Positions 25,508 to 62,582 of a stretch of 64,000 nt of DNA are shown here, piece after piece. Both the position numbers and the translations under genes were made by a program. The notes beneath the pieces were generated by a model, which was not told the origin of the DNA, did no database searches, and saw only the letters and a list, made by a program, of their open reading frames with translations. Source of the stretch: Natronolimnohabitans innermongolicus JCM 12255 (GTDB lineage: Archaea; Halobacteriota; Halobacteria; Halobacteriales; Natrialbaceae); assembly GCF_000337215.1 (NCBI RefSeq), contig NZ_AOHZ01000081.1:265-64264 (forward strand). The letters are read 5' to 3'. The first letter of the stretch is position 1, and each line of letters begins with the position of its first letter.

Positions 25508-27442
25508 ATGAGTTCCACGCGCGGTGTGATCCGCACCGACGGCGCTTCGGCAGCGGACGCGCTCGACGAGTGGACGTCGCCGGGCGTCGGCGTGGAGTAC
25601 GCGAGCGACGACGTGGCAATCTCGGCGACCCCGCGCGTGCACCGCTCCTCGAACTCGAACTCGAGTCGAACCCGTGGGTCAGACGACGGCGCGGTTCGGT
25701 GCTGGGTGATCGGCGACGTCTACGGTGCCACCGACGCGACCGGCGACGACGGCGCGTACGAGCCGCGTCCCGCGTCGGTCGATCCCGCACGGTACTGTCT
25801 GTCGCGCTACGAGTCCGACGACCTCGACTTCGTCGGCGACCTCAACGGGAACTTCGCGCTCCTTCTGTACGACGAGGAGCGCGAGCTGGTCGCGCTCTGT
25901 ACCGACCGGCTCGGGACGGTCCCCCTCTACTGGGCGCGACCGGACGACGACACGATCGTCTTCGCGACGAACGTGCAGTTGCTCCCGTTCCACCCGGCCG
26001 TCGACACCGCGTTCTCCCCGGCGTACCTACACGAGTATCTCGCGTTCCGCCGGACGTTCGGGGTCAAAACGCCGTTCGAGGGAATCGAGACGTTCGGGCC
26101 CGGGACGGTCACCACGATCCCGCTGGCCGGCGGCGAGTCGACGACCGATCGGTACTGGCGACCGCAGTACCGACCTCGCGACGCGTCGTTCGACCGGTTC
26201 GTCGACGAGTTCGTGCGTCGATTCCGCACCGTCGTCGACGAGTGGACCCGCGACGAGAACGAGTACGGCGTGTTGCTCTCCGGCGGCAGCGACTCCAGGC
26301 TCGTGCTGGCCGGCCTCGAGGACGCGACGGCGTTCCACATGAACGACTGGATGAACCGCGAGGCCCGCATCGCCGAACGGGTCGCGTTCGAGACCGGCGT
26401 CGAGTTCGAACTGCTCGAGCGCGGCGCCGACTACCGGATCGGTGCGCTCGAGCGCAACCGGTGGGCGGACTCGTTCAACGGCTGGTTCACGCAGCCGTAC
26501 ACGAGCGGGTTCGAAGACGCGATCACCGCTCGGGTCGACGGACTCCTCTCGGGACTGTACGCGGATTCGCTGTTCGGCGGATACCCGATCCCGTCGCCGA
26601 CGGCGTCGCTCGGCCCGCTGGGTTCGGTGACGCTGCCCGTCGAGCGATCGGTCGAGACGATCGACGACTACGTCGACTTGCTGCTCGAGCGGGCCCACGA
26701 CGACCTCGAGATGCCGACCGACCTCCGGACGGTGCTCGAGTCGAACATCCGCCGCGACGGCGGCCGGATCGTCCACCACGGCGTCGCCTACGACTCGCTC
26801 GACGAACTCGTCTACTACGGCGACTGCTACCCGCTCTCGAACGACGACGACCTGCGGTTTCACGGGGCCCTCCGGCGGACGCTTCCCTACCGGTCGCCGT
26901 TTCTCGACAACCGGCTCGTCGACCTCTCGCTGTCGATGCCGATCCGGTACCGCCTCCGCCGCAATCTCGTCGACCGGGCGGTCGAGCGGCTGGCGCCCGA
27001 ACTGGCCGCGATCCCCCACGCGAGCACCGGCGTGTCGCTCTCGCGATCGTTTCCGGCGTCCTACGCCGGCGAACACGCGACGGAGCTCTGGGACAAGTAC
27101 CTCTCTCCGCGGTCGCCGCCGGAGCCGTACCTGACCGACGGGCCGTGGCTGGACGACGCCGAACTGCTGCGCTCGTTCGAGTTCGCGCCCGCCGTCCTCG
27201 AGTCGAATGCCGACCTCGTCGACGCGCTCCCGGGTCCCGACCTCGAGGGGGCGTGCGACCTGTACCGCGCCCACCGCCGCGGCGAGAACCACGTCGGCGG
27301 ACTCTACACGCTGTTGACCGTCCTGACGATGCCCGCGACGGCGCGCGTACTCGACCGCGAATCGACGCGAGGCCGCGGTCGCCCGGCCGTGCCGTTCGGT
27401 CGGTGTCGCAAGCCGGAGCCGGAGGTGATCGACGTTGAATAG
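25508..27442 (+). CDS. Asparagine synthetase-like protein without an N-terminal Cys
   Basis: 644 residues. The C-terminal part carries the AMP-forming PP-loop LLSGGSDSRLVLAGL (S258-S263 as SGGSDS), so it should adenylate a carboxylate. The N-terminal ~170 residues keep the glutaminase-like fold (FVGDLNGNFALLLYD, LCTDRLGTVPLYW), but the protein starts MSSTR, without the Cys2 nucleophile. It therefore probably uses free ammonia or another amine, or makes a different bond. GGAGGTG precedes ATG 25508. The stop overlaps the next start by 8 bp. Confidence 0.83.
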   Translation: MSSTRGVIRTDGASAADALDEWTSPGVGVEYASDDVAISATPRVHRSSNSNSSRTRGSDDGAVRCWVIGDVYGATDATGDDGAYEPRPASVDPARYCLSRYESDDLDFVGDLNGNFALLLYDEERELVALCTDRLGTVPLYWARPDDDTIVFATNVQLLPFHPAVDTAFSPAYLHEYLAFRRTFGVKTPFEGIETFGPGTVTTIPLAGGESTTDRYWRPQYRPRDASFDRFVDEFVRRFRTVVDEWTRDENEYGVLLSGGSDSRLVLAGLEDATAFHMNDWMNREARIAERVAFETGVEFELLERGADYRIGALERNRWADSFNGWFTQPYTSGFEDAITARVDGLLSGLYADSLFGGYPIPSPTASLGPLGSVTLPVERSVETIDDYVDLLLERAHDDLEMPTDLRTVLESNIRRDGGRIVHHGVAYDSLDELVYYGDCYPLSNDDDLRFHGALRRTLPYRSPFLDNRLVDLSLSMPIRYRLRRNLVDRAVERLAPELAAIPHASTGVSLSRSFPASYAGEHATELWDKYLSPRSPPEPYLTDGPWLDDAELLRSFEFAPAVLESNADLVDALPGPDLEGACDLYRAHRRGENHVGGLYTLLTVLTMPATARVLDRESTRGRGRPAVPFGRCRKPEPEVIDVE

Positions 27443-28631
27443 CGACCGCGACGCCGTCGTCGTCACCGCCTCGCGGTACCCCCACGGGTACGCGACCGTC
27501 AGATCGCTCGCCGGTCGCGGCGTCCACACTATCGCCGCGGTCGACGACGAGCGCCTGAGCGTCACCGCCTCGCGCCACTGCGACGAGTCGGTGTTGATCC
27601 CGCCGCCGAGTGCCCTCCCGGCGTACAGGGACGCGCTGTTGGGACTCGCCGCTCGCCCGGACGTGCGGACGATCGTTCCCCATCGGCCCCACGATCCGTA
27701 CGTTCTGGCGAAGTACGCCGACGAGTTCGAACGCCACGTCGACGTCGTCGTCCCGGACCTCGAGACGCTGCGCTCGGTCCACGACCGGAAGCGACTCGCC
27801 GAGGCCGCTGAGCGTGCGGGCGCGGCGATTCCGTCGACCGAACTGCTCGGCGACGTCGACGACTGGAGCGGGGATCGAATCGTCAAGTCACGGTACAACC
27901 TGCTCACCGACGCCTACCTCGAGGAGTTCGCGTTCGAGGACTCGACGATCGCCAAATCCGTCGAGCACGTGCCGGCGGGCGAGACGCCGGACGTCGACGC
28001 GCTCACCGAGGCGATGGGCCACGAGCCGATCGTCCAGGAGTACGTCGAGGGCGAGGAGTACCTCTTCGGGGCGCTGTACGATCGCGGCGAGGCGCTCGCG
28101 ACCTTCCAGCACCGCCAGATTCGCGGCGACTCCTACACCGGAAGCGGCGGCGTCTTCCGCGAGTCGGTCGCGATCCCGGATCTCGAGGCGGCCGGCCGGG
28201 CGATCCTCGACGAACTCGAGTGGCACGGACTCGCCTGCATCGAGTACGTTCGGGACGCGGAGACCGGCGAGTTCAGCATCGTGGAGATCAACCCGCGGAT
28301 GTGGCAGTCGCTCGCGTGTGCGACCCGCGCGGGCGCTGACTTCCCCGCGTGGTACTGGCTGGCGGCCGCCGACCGGACCGACCGAATCGAGCCCGGTTAC
28401 GAGCCCGGCGTCGGCACGCACTACCTCTACGGCGAACTCGAGCACCTGGTGAGCGTCGCTCGCGAGGCGTCGCCGTTCGTCGAGCGCCCGTCGCTGCCGG
28501 GTCGAGCGGCGGAGATCCTGCGTTCGTGTGCGACGACGCCCGCGTTCGACTACCTCCACCCGGACGATCCGCGACCGCTCCTCCGGCAGGTCAGAACCGA
28601 ACTCGAGGACGCGGTGGCCAGACGGCGCTGA
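27435..28631 (+). CDS. ATP-grasp ligase (carboxylate-amine ligase type)
   Basis: 398 residues. The N-terminal ~100 residues form the pre-ATP-grasp domain (VVVTASRYPHGYATVRSL), followed by the ATP-grasp core. HEPIVQEYVEGEEYLFGALYD supplies the nucleotide-binding strand. FSIVEINPRMWQS supplies the metal-binding Glu/Asn/Arg set. It resembles haloarchaeal carboxylate-amine ligases related to D-aspartate ligase. The start is TTG at 27435, preceded by an ideal GGAGGTGATC, and overlaps the upstream gene by 8 bp. The coupled pair suggests a joint product, such as a peptide-like or amidated metabolite. Confidence 0.82.
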   Translation: MNSDRDAVVVTASRYPHGYATVRSLAGRGVHTIAAVDDERLSVTASRHCDESVLIPPPSALPAYRDALLGLAARPDVRTIVPHRPHDPYVLAKYADEFERHVDVVVPDLETLRSVHDRKRLAEAAERAGAAIPSTELLGDVDDWSGDRIVKSRYNLLTDAYLEEFAFEDSTIAKSVEHVPAGETPDVDALTEAMGHEPIVQEYVEGEEYLFGALYDRGEALATFQHRQIRGDSYTGSGGVFRESVAIPDLEAAGRAILDELEWHGLACIEYVRDAETGEFSIVEINPRMWQSLACATRAGADFPAWYWLAAADRTDRIEPGYEPGVGTHYLYGELEHLVSVAREASPFVERPSLPGRAAEILRSCATTPAFDYLHPDDPRPLLRQVRTELEDAVARRR

Positions 28632-32456: not shown

Positions 32457-33701
32457 ATGAACCTACCCCTGGGCGAGGGAACGATCGACGTCTCCCTGCC
32501 CGCCTGCGAGGTGACGGTCGCCGAGCCGCCAGGCGGCGAGTCGGTCGCCGTCCGTTCGGCCGCCGAGAACGCGCTCGACGATCCGCTCGGGCCGGCGCTG
32601 TCGGAGCGCGTCGATCCCGACGACGACGTCGCGATCGTCGTCACCGATATCACGCGCAAAGCGCCGGACGACGTGTTGCTCGACGTCCTGCTCGAGCGAC
32701 TGTCGTCCCGTGGCGTCGCCCGCGAGCAGGTGACGGTCGTGATCGGCCTCGGACTCCACCGCCCGATGACCGACGCGGAGATCGAGACGATGCTCGGCCC
32801 GCACGCGGAACTGGCGGTGAACCACGACCCGGAGTCGGTCGTCGAGGTCGGCACCGTCGACGCGGGTGAGCGCGACGTTCCCGTCGAAATCGGCGAACCG
32901 GTCGCCGAGGCCGATACGGTGCTCTCGACGGGCGTCGTCGAACCCCACCAGTACGCGGGCTTCAGCGGCGGCGCGAAGACCGTCGTCATCGGCGCCGGCA
33001 GCGAGTCGATCATTCGATACACCCACGGCCCGGAGATGCTCGCCAACGACGGCGTTCGTCTCGGTCGCGTCGACGGCAACCCGTTTCGCGAAACGCTCGA
33101 CGCGGCCGGCGACCTGGCCGGCGTCGACTTTTCGGTGAACCCCACCTACGGCCCCGCGGGCGTCCTCGGCGTCCGCGCGGGCGACGGTCGCCGCGTCGTC
33201 CGCGAACTCGCCGCGGTGGCTCGAGACGCCCTCTCGGTCTCGGTGCCGAGCGACCGTGAGTTCGACGCCGTCGTCTGCGGCGTCGGCGCGCCCAAGGACG
33301 CGAACCTCTACCAGGCGACCCGCGGGGCGACCTACGTCGCGCTCGGCGATCGCGATCCGCTCCGGGACGGCGGCCGACTGGTCGTCCCCGCCGAACTTCC
33401 TGAGGGGGCGGGCGACGGAACCGGCGAACAGCGCTTCCACCGTCGCTTGAGCGAGGCGACCGACGCCGAAACGCTCTACCGAGAGATGCGCGAGGGGTAC
33501 GAACCCGGCGCCCAGCGGGCGTTCGTCGTGGCCCGCGTCCTGCGCGAGTACGAACTCCACGTCACGAACAGCGAGGCTCCAGACGTGGTCGAAGCGTGTC
33601 TCATGCGCGCCGAAGACGAGGTCGAGGACGCACTCGAGGCGGGCAGCGAGGTACTGGTCGTGCCCGACGCGTTGAACACGCTGCTCGTCGACGGCCGTTG
33701 A
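32457..33701 (+). CDS. larA: Nickel-dependent lactate racemase LarA family
   Basis: 414 residues of the DUF2088/LarA family. Nickel-pincer-linked histidines and the lysine appear in GLGLHRPMTDAEIE and VEPHQYAGFSGGAKTVV. VTDITRKAPDDVLL is the N-terminal family signature. The enzyme would racemise lactate or a related 2-hydroxyacid, using a nickel-NPN cofactor made by LarB, LarC and LarE, none of which is encoded here. It could connect to the lactate-oxidase-like enzyme at 4516. ATG 32457 is the natural start. Confidence 0.85.
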   Translation: MNLPLGEGTIDVSLPACEVTVAEPPGGESVAVRSAAENALDDPLGPALSERVDPDDDVAIVVTDITRKAPDDVLLDVLLERLSSRGVAREQVTVVIGLGLHRPMTDAEIETMLGPHAELAVNHDPESVVEVGTVDAGERDVPVEIGEPVAEADTVLSTGVVEPHQYAGFSGGAKTVVIGAGSESIIRYTHGPEMLANDGVRLGRVDGNPFRETLDAAGDLAGVDFSVNPTYGPAGVLGVRAGDGRRVVRELAAVARDALSVSVPSDREFDAVVCGVGAPKDANLYQATRGATYVALGDRDPLRDGGRLVVPAELPEGAGDGTGEQRFHRRLSEATDAETLYREMREGYEPGAQRAFVVARVLREYELHVTNSEAPDVVEACLMRAEDEVEDALEAGSEVLVVPDALNTLLVDGR

Positions 33702-56123: not shown

Positions 56124-56861
56124 TTATTCTGCGGGTGCCGGCGCTTTCTCCGCTCGCTGAATCCGTTCTTCGGCCGCCTCGCGATCCTCCGGATAGCCGA
56201 CGTCGATGCGCCAGCCGTCCATCCGAATGGCGTCGATGGTGCGGCCGGACTGGAGGAGCAGATCGATCGCATCCGGGAGTTCGTACTCGCCGCGGTCGGA
56301 GGGCTGGACGAGGTGGCAGGCGTGGAAGATCGCCGGCGTGAACGTGTAGAAGCCGGTCATGACGAGGTTCGACGGCGGATCGTCGGGCTTCTCGACGACC
56401 TCGACGATCTCGCCGTACTCGTTGGTGTCGAGGACGCCGTAGCGGGAGGCCTCCTCGTAGGGCACCTCCTCGACGAGGAAGGCGGCGTCCGCTCGCTCCT
56501 CTCGCTGGCGGTTGATCACGTCGCCGAGGTTCCCCCGGAAGACGTTGTCGCCGAGCATCAGGACGAAATCGTCGTCGATGTGCGGTTCGGCCTGGAGGAT
56601 GGCGTGAGCGAGACCCAGCTGTTCGCGCTGGTGGGCGTAGGTGATCGGCACGCCCTCGTACTCGTCGCCGTAGCGTTCGATGATCTGCTCTTTCATGTGG
56701 CCTACGACCACGACGAGCTTCGTGACGCCGATCTCGAGGAGGTTGTCGAAAACGTCCTCGACGAGGGGTTTGCCGTCGACCTCGACGAGGGCTTTGGGTT
56801 TGTCGTCAGTCAGGGGCTTCAGTCGGGTTCCCTTGCCCGCCGCTAATACGACTGCTTGCAT
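56124..56861 (-). CDS. aglF: Sugar-1-phosphate nucleotidyltransferase, AglF-like
   Basis: 245 residues. VLAAGKGTRLKPLTDDKPKAL (residues 5-25) is the nucleotide-binding signature, and VLMLGDNVF, EEASRYGVLDTNE and MTGFYTFTP are further family markers. The enzyme makes UDP-glucose or dTDP-glucose-like donors; in Haloferax, AglF supplies the N-glycosylation pathway. A TATA box 29 nt upstream indicates a leaderless mRNA. The flippase at 61137 is likely from the same locus, separated by accessory genes. Confidence 0.87.
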   Translation of the reverse strand: MQAVVLAAGKGTRLKPLTDDKPKALVEVDGKPLVEDVFDNLLEIGVTKLVVVVGHMKEQIIERYGDEYEGVPITYAHQREQLGLAHAILQAEPHIDDDFVLMLGDNVFRGNLGDVINRQREERADAAFLVEEVPYEEASRYGVLDTNEYGEIVEVVEKPDDPPSNLVMTGFYTFTPAIFHACHLVQPSDRGEYELPDAIDLLLQSGRTIDAIRMDGWRIDVGYPEDREAAEERIQRAEKAPAPAE

Positions 56862-61136: not shown

Positions 61137-62582
61137 TCAATTTGGAACGAAGGGCAGATCGAACGGCAGGTTATCCGTAACGGTGGTTCGGAACGTCCTC
61201 GAGATGACGAATAACGTGCCGAAGTACACTGCCGCTCCGACGCTCACGAGTGCGACGACGAAGGCAGCATTGTACTCCGCGAGCCAGTGTGTTTCGGTGA
61301 GCTGGCGGACGACGTATACCGTAGCACCCATTCCGATAGCCGCAATCCACTGACGGGTAATTTCGGCTACCGGAAGCGAGAACGGTACGTACGAACTGGC
61401 GTAATAGTACGCGAGAACGAGACCAACTGCAGCAGAAAGTGCGGTCGCGACGGCGGCACCGACCCAGCCGATCTGCCAGATCAGGATTACGTTCAGGATC
61501 ACGTTCACGACGATGAAGACCCCGTTGGCTCGGAACGCGAGGTCGGGTCTATCGATCGCGTTGAGGATGCTCAGTAGTTGTTTGTTGTACGTGTAGATCA
61601 ACAGCGCGAGGACGAGAATCGCGAGGACGTCCGTACCGGCGACGAACGAGTCGCCGTAAATCTGTAGCAGTCGGTCACCGATTACGAGCGCCCCGACGAG
61701 CCCTGGGATCAGGATCAGCCCGGCATAAGTGAGTCCGTCTTCGGCAAGTCCGGCAATGGCATTGGCGTCGTTCTCCGCGGACACTTTGCTCATCTCGGGG
61801 AAGAGCGTGTTGCTCACGGCACTGCCGAAGATATCGAGGAACTTGCCGATCGACCAGGCAACCGAGTAGATCCCGACCAGCCCCTGGGTCACGAAAAAGC
61901 CGAGCACAGCGATGTCGACGGTCTCGAACGACTCCCCGCGGATGCTGCCGAGCCAGGCGTACTTCGCGTACTCGAACAGGCTAACGATGTGCTCTTTCCC
62001 GGGCATCGACGGACGCAGTCCGAGTACCCAGAGACCGATTGTGGCCGTCACGAGGTAGCCGATCGCATATCCCCACAGCATGCCGGAGAGTCCGAGGCCG
62101 AACAGAGCGACCAGCCCGATCTGAGCGACGGCTCGCGTACCCTGTCTGCCCGTCGAGAGGATCGCGTAGACGTGGACAAGGTGATTCCCTTTCAGCGACG
62201 CGTTGATAAGTGACTTGTACAGTGTCACGAATAGCAGCAAGACGACGAACTCGGCGACGGGAACGCCGACGTAGGCGTTGACCTGCTCGCGAAAGACGAT
62301 CACGGCAACAGCGACGATCGTCATCATCGCCCCCATGACGACCAGGCCGGCCCCCGTGAACTCTTCTGGCTCTTCACCCTCGCTGATCCGTTTGGTGATT
62401 GCTCGGTTGATTCCTACTTTGCCACCGATTCCGAGCCAGGTGACCACCGCTAGTACCAGTGCATACTGGCCGAGTACGTCCTCACCAAGGACACGCGCAA
62501 AGTACACCGTCGCGAGGAACCCAAGAACTGATCCGAGGACCTTCGAGACGAGGTAGACGGCGGAGGTCTGTCCGAGGCGCAT
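61137..62582 (-). CDS. aglR: Oligosaccharide flippase, AglR/Wzx-like
   Basis: 481 residues with twelve to fourteen membrane segments of the MOP/polysaccharide-transporter family. RLGQTSAVYLVSKVLGSVLG starts the protein, followed by TVYFARVLGEDVLGQYALV. It should move lipid-linked oligosaccharide across the membrane for S-layer glycosylation. It probably belongs with aglF (56124), although a block of accessory genes separates them. ATG 62582 is clear. The AglR name rests on general resemblance. Confidence 0.83.
   Translation of the reverse strand: MRLGQTSAVYLVSKVLGSVLGFLATVYFARVLGEDVLGQYALVLAVVTWLGIGGKVGINRAITKRISEGEEPEEFTGAGLVVMGAMMTIVAVAVIVFREQVNAYVGVPVAEFVVLLLFVTLYKSLINASLKGNHLVHVYAILSTGRQGTRAVAQIGLVALFGLGLSGMLWGYAIGYLVTATIGLWVLGLRPSMPGKEHIVSLFEYAKYAWLGSIRGESFETVDIAVLGFFVTQGLVGIYSVAWSIGKFLDIFGSAVSNTLFPEMSKVSAENDANAIAGLAEDGLTYAGLILIPGLVGALVIGDRLLQIYGDSFVAGTDVLAILVLALLIYTYNKQLLSILNAIDRPDLAFRANGVFIVVNVILNVILIWQIGWVGAAVATALSAAVGLVLAYYYASSYVPFSLPVAEITRQWIAAIGMGATVYVVRQLTETHWLAEYNAAFVVALVSVGAAVYFGTLFVISRTFRTTVTDNLPFDLPFVPN

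Follow-up and report, generated by a model that had tools for sequence, protein, structure and literature searches.

An overlapping gene pair for an AsnB-fold protein and an ATP-grasp ligase in haloarchaea, with a possible role in surface-glycan modification

The subject of this analysis is a stretch of 64,000 nucleotides (the window) from the haloarchaeon Natronolimnohabitans innermongolicus JCM 12255 (contig NZ_AOHZ01000081.1), and within it two overlapping genes, here termed A and B, which carry the generic NCBI labels 'asparagine synthase-related protein' (A) and 'carboxylate--amine ligase' (B). The reading that we favor, with a probability of roughly 0.4, is that A and B are dedicated, translationally coupled amide-forming enzymes that take part in a pathway for modification of surface glycans, i.e., acidic polysaccharide. 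The evidence comes from the organization of the two genes, the folds and conserved residues of their products, the repeated co-localization of their homologues, and the polysaccharide genes that surround some of the relatives of A.

An earlier note on this DNA, made from the letters alone, had described two amide-forming genes that overlap by 8 bp, and the overlap is confirmed to the base (Table 1). A perfect Shine-Dalgarno sequence, GGAGGTGATC, ends four bases 5′ of the TTG start codon of B. It is present as a single exact copy in the window, where 0.25 copies are expected. Of 20 co-directional A-B junctions, 14 have its core, GGTGATC, at the equivalent position, several of these being from near-identical genomes. 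Since the Shine-Dalgarno sequence lies inside A and the two genes overlap, translation of B is probably coupled to that of A.

Protein A matches the Pfam families Asn_synthase (PF00733; 9e-13) and GATase_7 (PF13537; 2.5e-10), the latter over the second half of the domain only. Direct sequence searches of the Protein Data Bank (PDB) were weak for both proteins, and profiles were used instead. The AlphaFold2 model of A (predicted local distance difference test, pLDDT, 85.6) matches TsnB9, AsnB, β-lactam synthetase and carbapenam synthetase across both domains, with Foldseek E-values of about 1e-15 to 1e-18 and TM-scores by target of 0.61–0.68 for PDB entries 1jgt, 1mbz and 1q15. A has the two-domain AsnB fold without the glutaminase cysteine, as in enzymes of the β-lactam and carbapenam synthetase type. 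The earlier note's claim that A carries an SGGxDS loop and lacks Cys2 stands: position 2 is Ser in the window, and Cys is present there in none of the 25 homologues that make up our alignment of A. More distant homologues mostly start with MVGL, as compared with MCSI in Escherichia coli AsnB, and the AsnB residues Arg49 and Asp98 are not kept in A. Use of glutamine via the usual cysteine is, from these alignments, impossible. In the SGGSDSR loop (residues 258–264), S258, G259, G260, D262, S263 and R264 are invariant in the 25 sequences, with variation at the fourth loop residue, and the Asp of the SGLYAD motif is likewise invariant; A still looks able to bind ATP.

With respect to the synthetase residues, HMMER aligns the AsnB-type motif SGExxDE with SGLYADT of A, where the position of Glu348 is occupied by Leu, Met or His. 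No Lys is found in the Lys449 region, near PHAxxG, in the 25-sequence alignment, the C-terminal part of A being one that aligns poorly with AsnB; an hhalign comparison with E. coli AsnB extended over the N-terminal half of A up to SGG only, and whole-sequence MAFFT misplaced the Glu348 region. In the alignment of the A family, an aromatic residue (SGLY/SGLF) stands one position later than expected for a Tyr/Glu dyad. A is apparently devoid of the usual AsnB synthetase residues Glu348 and Lys449, and because of this apparent loss ordinary amidation chemistry cannot be assumed. Since, in addition, the cysteine is absent, A must, to judge by its residues, use other catalytic groups or none. The scores of A are far below the cut-offs of every equivalog model scored, i.e., TIGR01536 for AsnB (98.5 bits, cut-off 267.1), TIGR03104 (88 bits, cut-off 570; the second-best NCBIfam match of A) and TIGR03108 (76 bits, cut-off 817), and A reaches 48 bits against the lasso cyclase model NF033535 (cut-off 525).

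Protein B scores 29.6 bits against the Pfam family ATPgrasp_Ter (PF15632), marginally above the cut-off of 29.1. Its AlphaFold2 model (pLDDT 93.3) is matched by Foldseek to biotin carboxylase, carbamoyl-phosphate synthetase, PurK and L-amino-acid ligases; the fold resembles that of many ATP-grasp enzymes, the L-amino-acid ligases 3vot and RizA included. K151, E284, N286 and R288 are invariant in the alignment. With the fold, the conserved Lys and the metal-binding E-x-N motif of the ATP-grasp superfamily all present, B is predicted to be an intact ATP-grasp ligase, and the suggestion of the earlier note that two amide-forming folds are coupled here is borne out. A Pfam scan found no GNAT/acetyltransferase domain in B. 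The genome holds five further relatives of B at 47–55% identity and one at 29%; the neighbors of the five paralogues (loci L033–L037) are mostly genes without an obvious connection to the chemistry of amides or glycans.

Homologues of A are present in 75 of the 392 genomes of the order. In these 75 genomes, all 11 B homologues of at least 70% identity adjoin an A homologue, as do 19 of 21 at 60% identity or more, at distances within 270 bp, 12 of them co-directional and 7 convergent. Of the A homologues with at least 43% identity, 19 of 57 adjoin B, and many A lineages are without it. The pairing is far beyond chance, and the adjacency on which the earlier note had staked its view holds for B, even where the genes are convergent, and for A in some lineages only. 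The B proteins that have A as neighbor fall into one clade (100/99), with the more distant B paralogues outside, and the A partners of B imply at least four separate changes on the A tree, some of which are accounted for by losses of B (L026, L031); a single clade of such A proteins is rejected (p-AU 5e-6, 571 log units). Since B forms one clade and its A partners come from several lineages, a dedicated ATP-grasp subfamily has, on these trees, joined A more than once. The overall pattern, with its changed orientation, speaks for functional coupling and not for an inherited neighborhood. Homologues covering most of A are also found on fifteen haloarchaeal plasmid records, including pHTUR02 of Haloterrigena turkmenica, and the family to which A belongs is often located on extrachromosomal replicons.

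The neighborhoods of relatives point to surface polysaccharide, with genes for Wzx, Wzy, glycosyltransferases, uridine diphosphate (UDP)-glucose dehydrogenase, polysaccharide deacetylase and FemAB-type acyltransferase nearby. The A paralogue of this genome (L032; 39% identical) lies 4 bp 5′ of a Wzx flippase gene, which is followed by a Wzy polymerase gene, a sulfatase-like gene and two glycosyltransferase (GT4) genes. At L084, a GT2 gene is followed by A-B, and genes for UDP-glucose dehydrogenase, GT2 and GT4 are located on the other side; at L079, Wzx-family and phosphodiesterase-family genes lie within a few genes of the pair. Among the matches listed, at least four A sites have a Wzx-family gene no more than 5 kb away, with 0.53 expected. 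A polysaccharide deacetylase gene adjoins B of the pair in Natronococcus, and another is found upstream of A in Haloterrigena turkmenica; the two deacetylases are not significantly similar to one another and represent two separate genes. In genomes of the Haladaptatus and Halalkalicoccus types, A shares an operon with genes for a phosphodiesterase (PF01663) and an acyltransferase of the FemAB type; the further member is a DegT-like aminotransferase or a Thr-rich protein secreted by twin-arginine translocation (Tat). Across the A family, in different genomes, the gene links of TIGR03108-type proteins are seen, i.e., to FemAB-type acyltransferase, polysaccharide deacetylase and polysaccharide export, but not around the window pair. 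Related assemblies also occur around B: phosphodiesterase, FemAB-type protein, secreted protein and B stand together at L088, where A is missing, and phosphodiesterase, acetyltransferase and B at L036 of this genome.

Several points weigh against assigning the pair to glycan modification. In the window, A-B is an isolated two-gene operon with no glycan gene recognized within about 10 kb, and none was recognized within that distance at L018, L019, L078, L080–L083 and L091; the nearest glycan-type genes found in the window are the nucleotidyltransferase gene, about 28 kb from the pair, and the Wzx-type gene, about 33 kb from it. For the window pair we infer a glycan role from relatives, chiefly those of A, and where A relatives have the strongest glycan neighborhoods, B is mostly missing. 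The haloarchaeal FemAB-type protein matches TIGR03019 weakly (27 bits, cut-off 260), the score of A against TIGR03108 is low, and the apparent loss of Glu348 and Lys449 makes the activity of A uncertain.

Table 1. Features of the window (positions count from its first letter)
Feature	Position	Strand	Basis
Gene A, AsnB-fold synthetase-like, glutaminase Cys absent	25508-27442	+	Open reading frame (ORF), ATG 25508 to TAG 27442, 644 amino acids
Gene A, degenerate N-terminal glutaminase-type domain, residues ~1-205	25508-26122	+	Pfam, alignment
Gene A, SGGSDSR ATP-pyrophosphatase loop, residues 258-264	26279-26299	+	25-sequence alignment
Shine-Dalgarno sequence GGAGGTGATC for gene B, within the last codons of A	27421-27430	+	Exact-match search
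A/B overlap, 8 bp, probable translational coupling	27435-27442	+	Sequence
Gene B, ATP-grasp carboxylate-amine ligase-like	27435-28631	+	ORF, TTG 27435 to TGA 28631, 398 amino acids
LarA-like (lactate racemase family) protein	32457-33701	+	
Nucleotidyltransferase, sugar-nucleotide type	56124-56861	-	
Wzx/MurJ-type polysaccharide flippase	61137-62582	-	

Further genes accompany A at particular loci. Two proteins are encoded upstream of A on the same strand at L018 (8751–9595), L019 (8723–9567) and L030 (8840–9738), a small one of 97–103 amino acids with a weak holin-like match and a winged-helix protein of 179–196 amino acids; neither has a called counterpart 5′ of A in the window. At L098, L113, L114 and L115, A stands in tandem with a very divergent second AsnB-fold copy (A′), a lineage that in this genome is represented singly at L041 (8887–10509), near glycosyltransferases and UDP-glucose dehydrogenase. 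The Tat-signal, Thr-rich secreted protein that closes the A-phosphodiesterase-FemAB operon (L105:5315–6409 and relatives) has, by eye, a PGF-CTERM-like tail, which hints at a possible connection with an archaeosortase, comparable to that in bacterial PEP-CTERM clusters.

In the pathway that we propose, B would form an acyl phosphate from a carboxylate, which would thereby be activated, and join it to an amine. A, if catalytic, would adenylate a carboxylate, most likely that of a uronic-acid sugar; uronic acids are carried by haloarchaeal surface polymers. The adenylated carboxylate would be attacked by an amine, either free ammonia or the amino group of the product of B, yielding a uronamide or an amide of an amino acid with a uronic acid. 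Glutamine is disfavored as amine donor because Cys1 is lost in A. On this reading, the pair would probably attach an amine or an amino acid to an acidic surface sugar.

A more far-reaching version, which we consider distinctly unlikely, is that A and B join amino acids to acidic surface polysaccharide, or cross-link it, via amide bonds, A being an AsnB-fold synthetase with a remodeled active site. If true, this would be an archaeal counterpart of peptide cross-linking, and the pair could supply genes for amino-acid bridges, e.g., those of N-glycyl-glucosamine in the walls of Halococcus, which contain glycine and N-glycyl-glucosaminyl bridges (PMC4187196). Genes for haloarchaeal wall amide bonds were not found in a limited literature search. 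We know of none that has been assigned to them. A conserved pair under generic annotation offers a concrete two-gene target, and the A family, having kept the ATP site and lost the glutaminase and apparently the usual synthetase residues, presents chemistry worth solving.

The best placed of the alternatives, though itself unlikely, is that the product of A and B is a small soluble molecule, e.g., an amidated dipeptide solute or a secondary metabolite. The model would be N-acetylglutaminylglutamine amide, for which AsnO is combined with an ATP-grasp protein. The rank of TIGR03104 among the matches of A, the ATP-grasp partner, the likeness of B to L-amino-acid ligases and the isolation of the window pair are consistent with this; however, the TIGR03104 score is far below cut-off, no acetyltransferase domain was found in B, relatives of A reside in polysaccharide clusters, and the patchy distribution over the order is unlike that of a core osmolyte. 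Unlikely as well is that A is a catalytically dead AsnB-fold partner which regulates or scaffolds B, the bond being made by B only. The loss of the cysteine and of recognizable Glu348 and Lys449, together with the retained ATP-grasp residues of B, would agree with such a role, but the invariance of the SGGSDSR loop (fourth residue apart) and of the SGLYAD Asp argues for retained function, and the many A homologues without B indicate that A has a role of its own. Moreover, the AsnB-type Glu can be replaced, as it is in β-lactam synthetase.

It is very improbable that A-B builds a poly-γ-glutamate or polyglutamine wall polymer of the kind reported for Natronococcus and Natrialba. The wall of Natronococcus is polyglutamine, the pair is conserved in this genus, and such a polymer would call for amide-forming enzymes. 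Poly-γ-glutamate is secreted by Natrialba aegyptiaca (PMC4187202). Nevertheless, CapC/PgsC (PF14102) is present in 2 of 18 genomes with A-B and in 2 of 12 without, i.e., it has no association with the pair, it is absent from the genome of the window, and A-B occurs in many genera beyond Natronococcus; this candidate was rejected. Even less credible is tailoring of a ribosomal peptide (lasso or lactam), in which a precursor peptide would be cyclized by A and modified by B as a graspetide-like ligase. Lasso cyclases are among the Cys-less AsnB enzymes, and A has a weak match to NF033535, but its score is far below the cut-off, the leader-peptidase family PF13471 was not found in the genome, and a noisy scan for short ORFs beside the pair gave none clearly common to the genera, only one component of 54 fragments, judged spurious, and pieces of ordinary neighbors. 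This largely contradicts a ribosomal peptide, and plain asparagine synthesis is disfavored along with the lasso peptide and capsular polyglutamate. Wall-peptide amidation as in Gram-positive bacteria, with B as analogue of D-aspartate ligase and A of AsnH, has almost no credence: it matches the two folds within one operon, but to our knowledge haloarchaea have no murein, no examined neighbor of A resembles peptide-stem synthesis, and the analogy is one of fold only. The peptide picture of the earlier note, which had been drawn from D-aspartate ligase and AsnB, is not supported in that form, the neighborhoods pointing to surface polysaccharide; its interpretation as a whole is partly supported.

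No paper on the A-B pair was found in a small search of the open-access literature, and a limited open-access search on haloarchaeal asparagine synthase with ATP-grasp found nothing; comparison is therefore with systems that share one or both folds. For B, the best PDB profile match (2e-13) is 2pn1, a carbamoyl-phosphate synthase-like protein of the PRK12767/PF15632 type, which has the same fold but about 16% identity. The D-aspartate ligase and AsnH of Gram-positive walls also pair an ATP-grasp ligase with an AsnB-like protein, but serve murein, and A is without a glutaminase. Synthesis of N-acetylglutaminylglutamine amide (AsnO, TIGR03104, with a GNAT/ATP-grasp protein) likewise uses an AsnB-like and ATP-grasp pair, but differs in the score of A (88 versus 570 bits) and in the GNAT domain, which was not found in B. 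For A, the best match in both sequence profile and fold is the hydroxyamidotransferase TsnB9 (7ylz), although identity is about 15%; TsnB9 functions in hydroxamate formation in a natural-product pathway. β-Lactam synthetase (1jgt) and carbapenam synthetase (1q15) are close structural matches that share the Cys-less AsnB fold and have an active ATP-pyrophosphatase loop, but their Tyr/Glu dyad and Lys were not recognized in the alignment of the A family, and the context of A relatives is surface glycan, not antibiotic.

The remaining comparison is with the Wbp/Vim pathway of Porphyromonas, which makes 2-N-seryl-3-N-acetylglucuronamide by means of WbpS, VimE and VimA (PMC7468200). Of these, WbpS is AsnB-like and forms the uronamide, and VimE is a putative deacetylase. 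Addition of serine or glycine depends on VimA, which has a match to TIGR03019 and is a putative N-acetyltransferase (PMC7468200). In contrast to WbpS and the XrtA/PEP-CTERM AsnB-like amidotransferases (TIGR03108), A is without the glutaminase Cys and apparently without Glu348 and Lys449, falls far short of the cut-off of the model, and has as its partner an ATP-grasp ligase, which is undescribed for the bacterial pathway. We file A as a putative glutaminase-less form of the polysaccharide-linked AsnB-like enzymes, distinct from AsnB, lasso cyclase and WbpS. It nevertheless shares the AsnB two-domain fold with WbpS and TIGR03108 proteins, and its relatives occur in polysaccharide clusters that also contain a FemAB-type acyltransferase, a deacetylase or a UDP-sugar dehydrogenase, such that the haloarchaeal gene set, by analogy, resembles the bacterial Wbp/Vim uronamide pathway.

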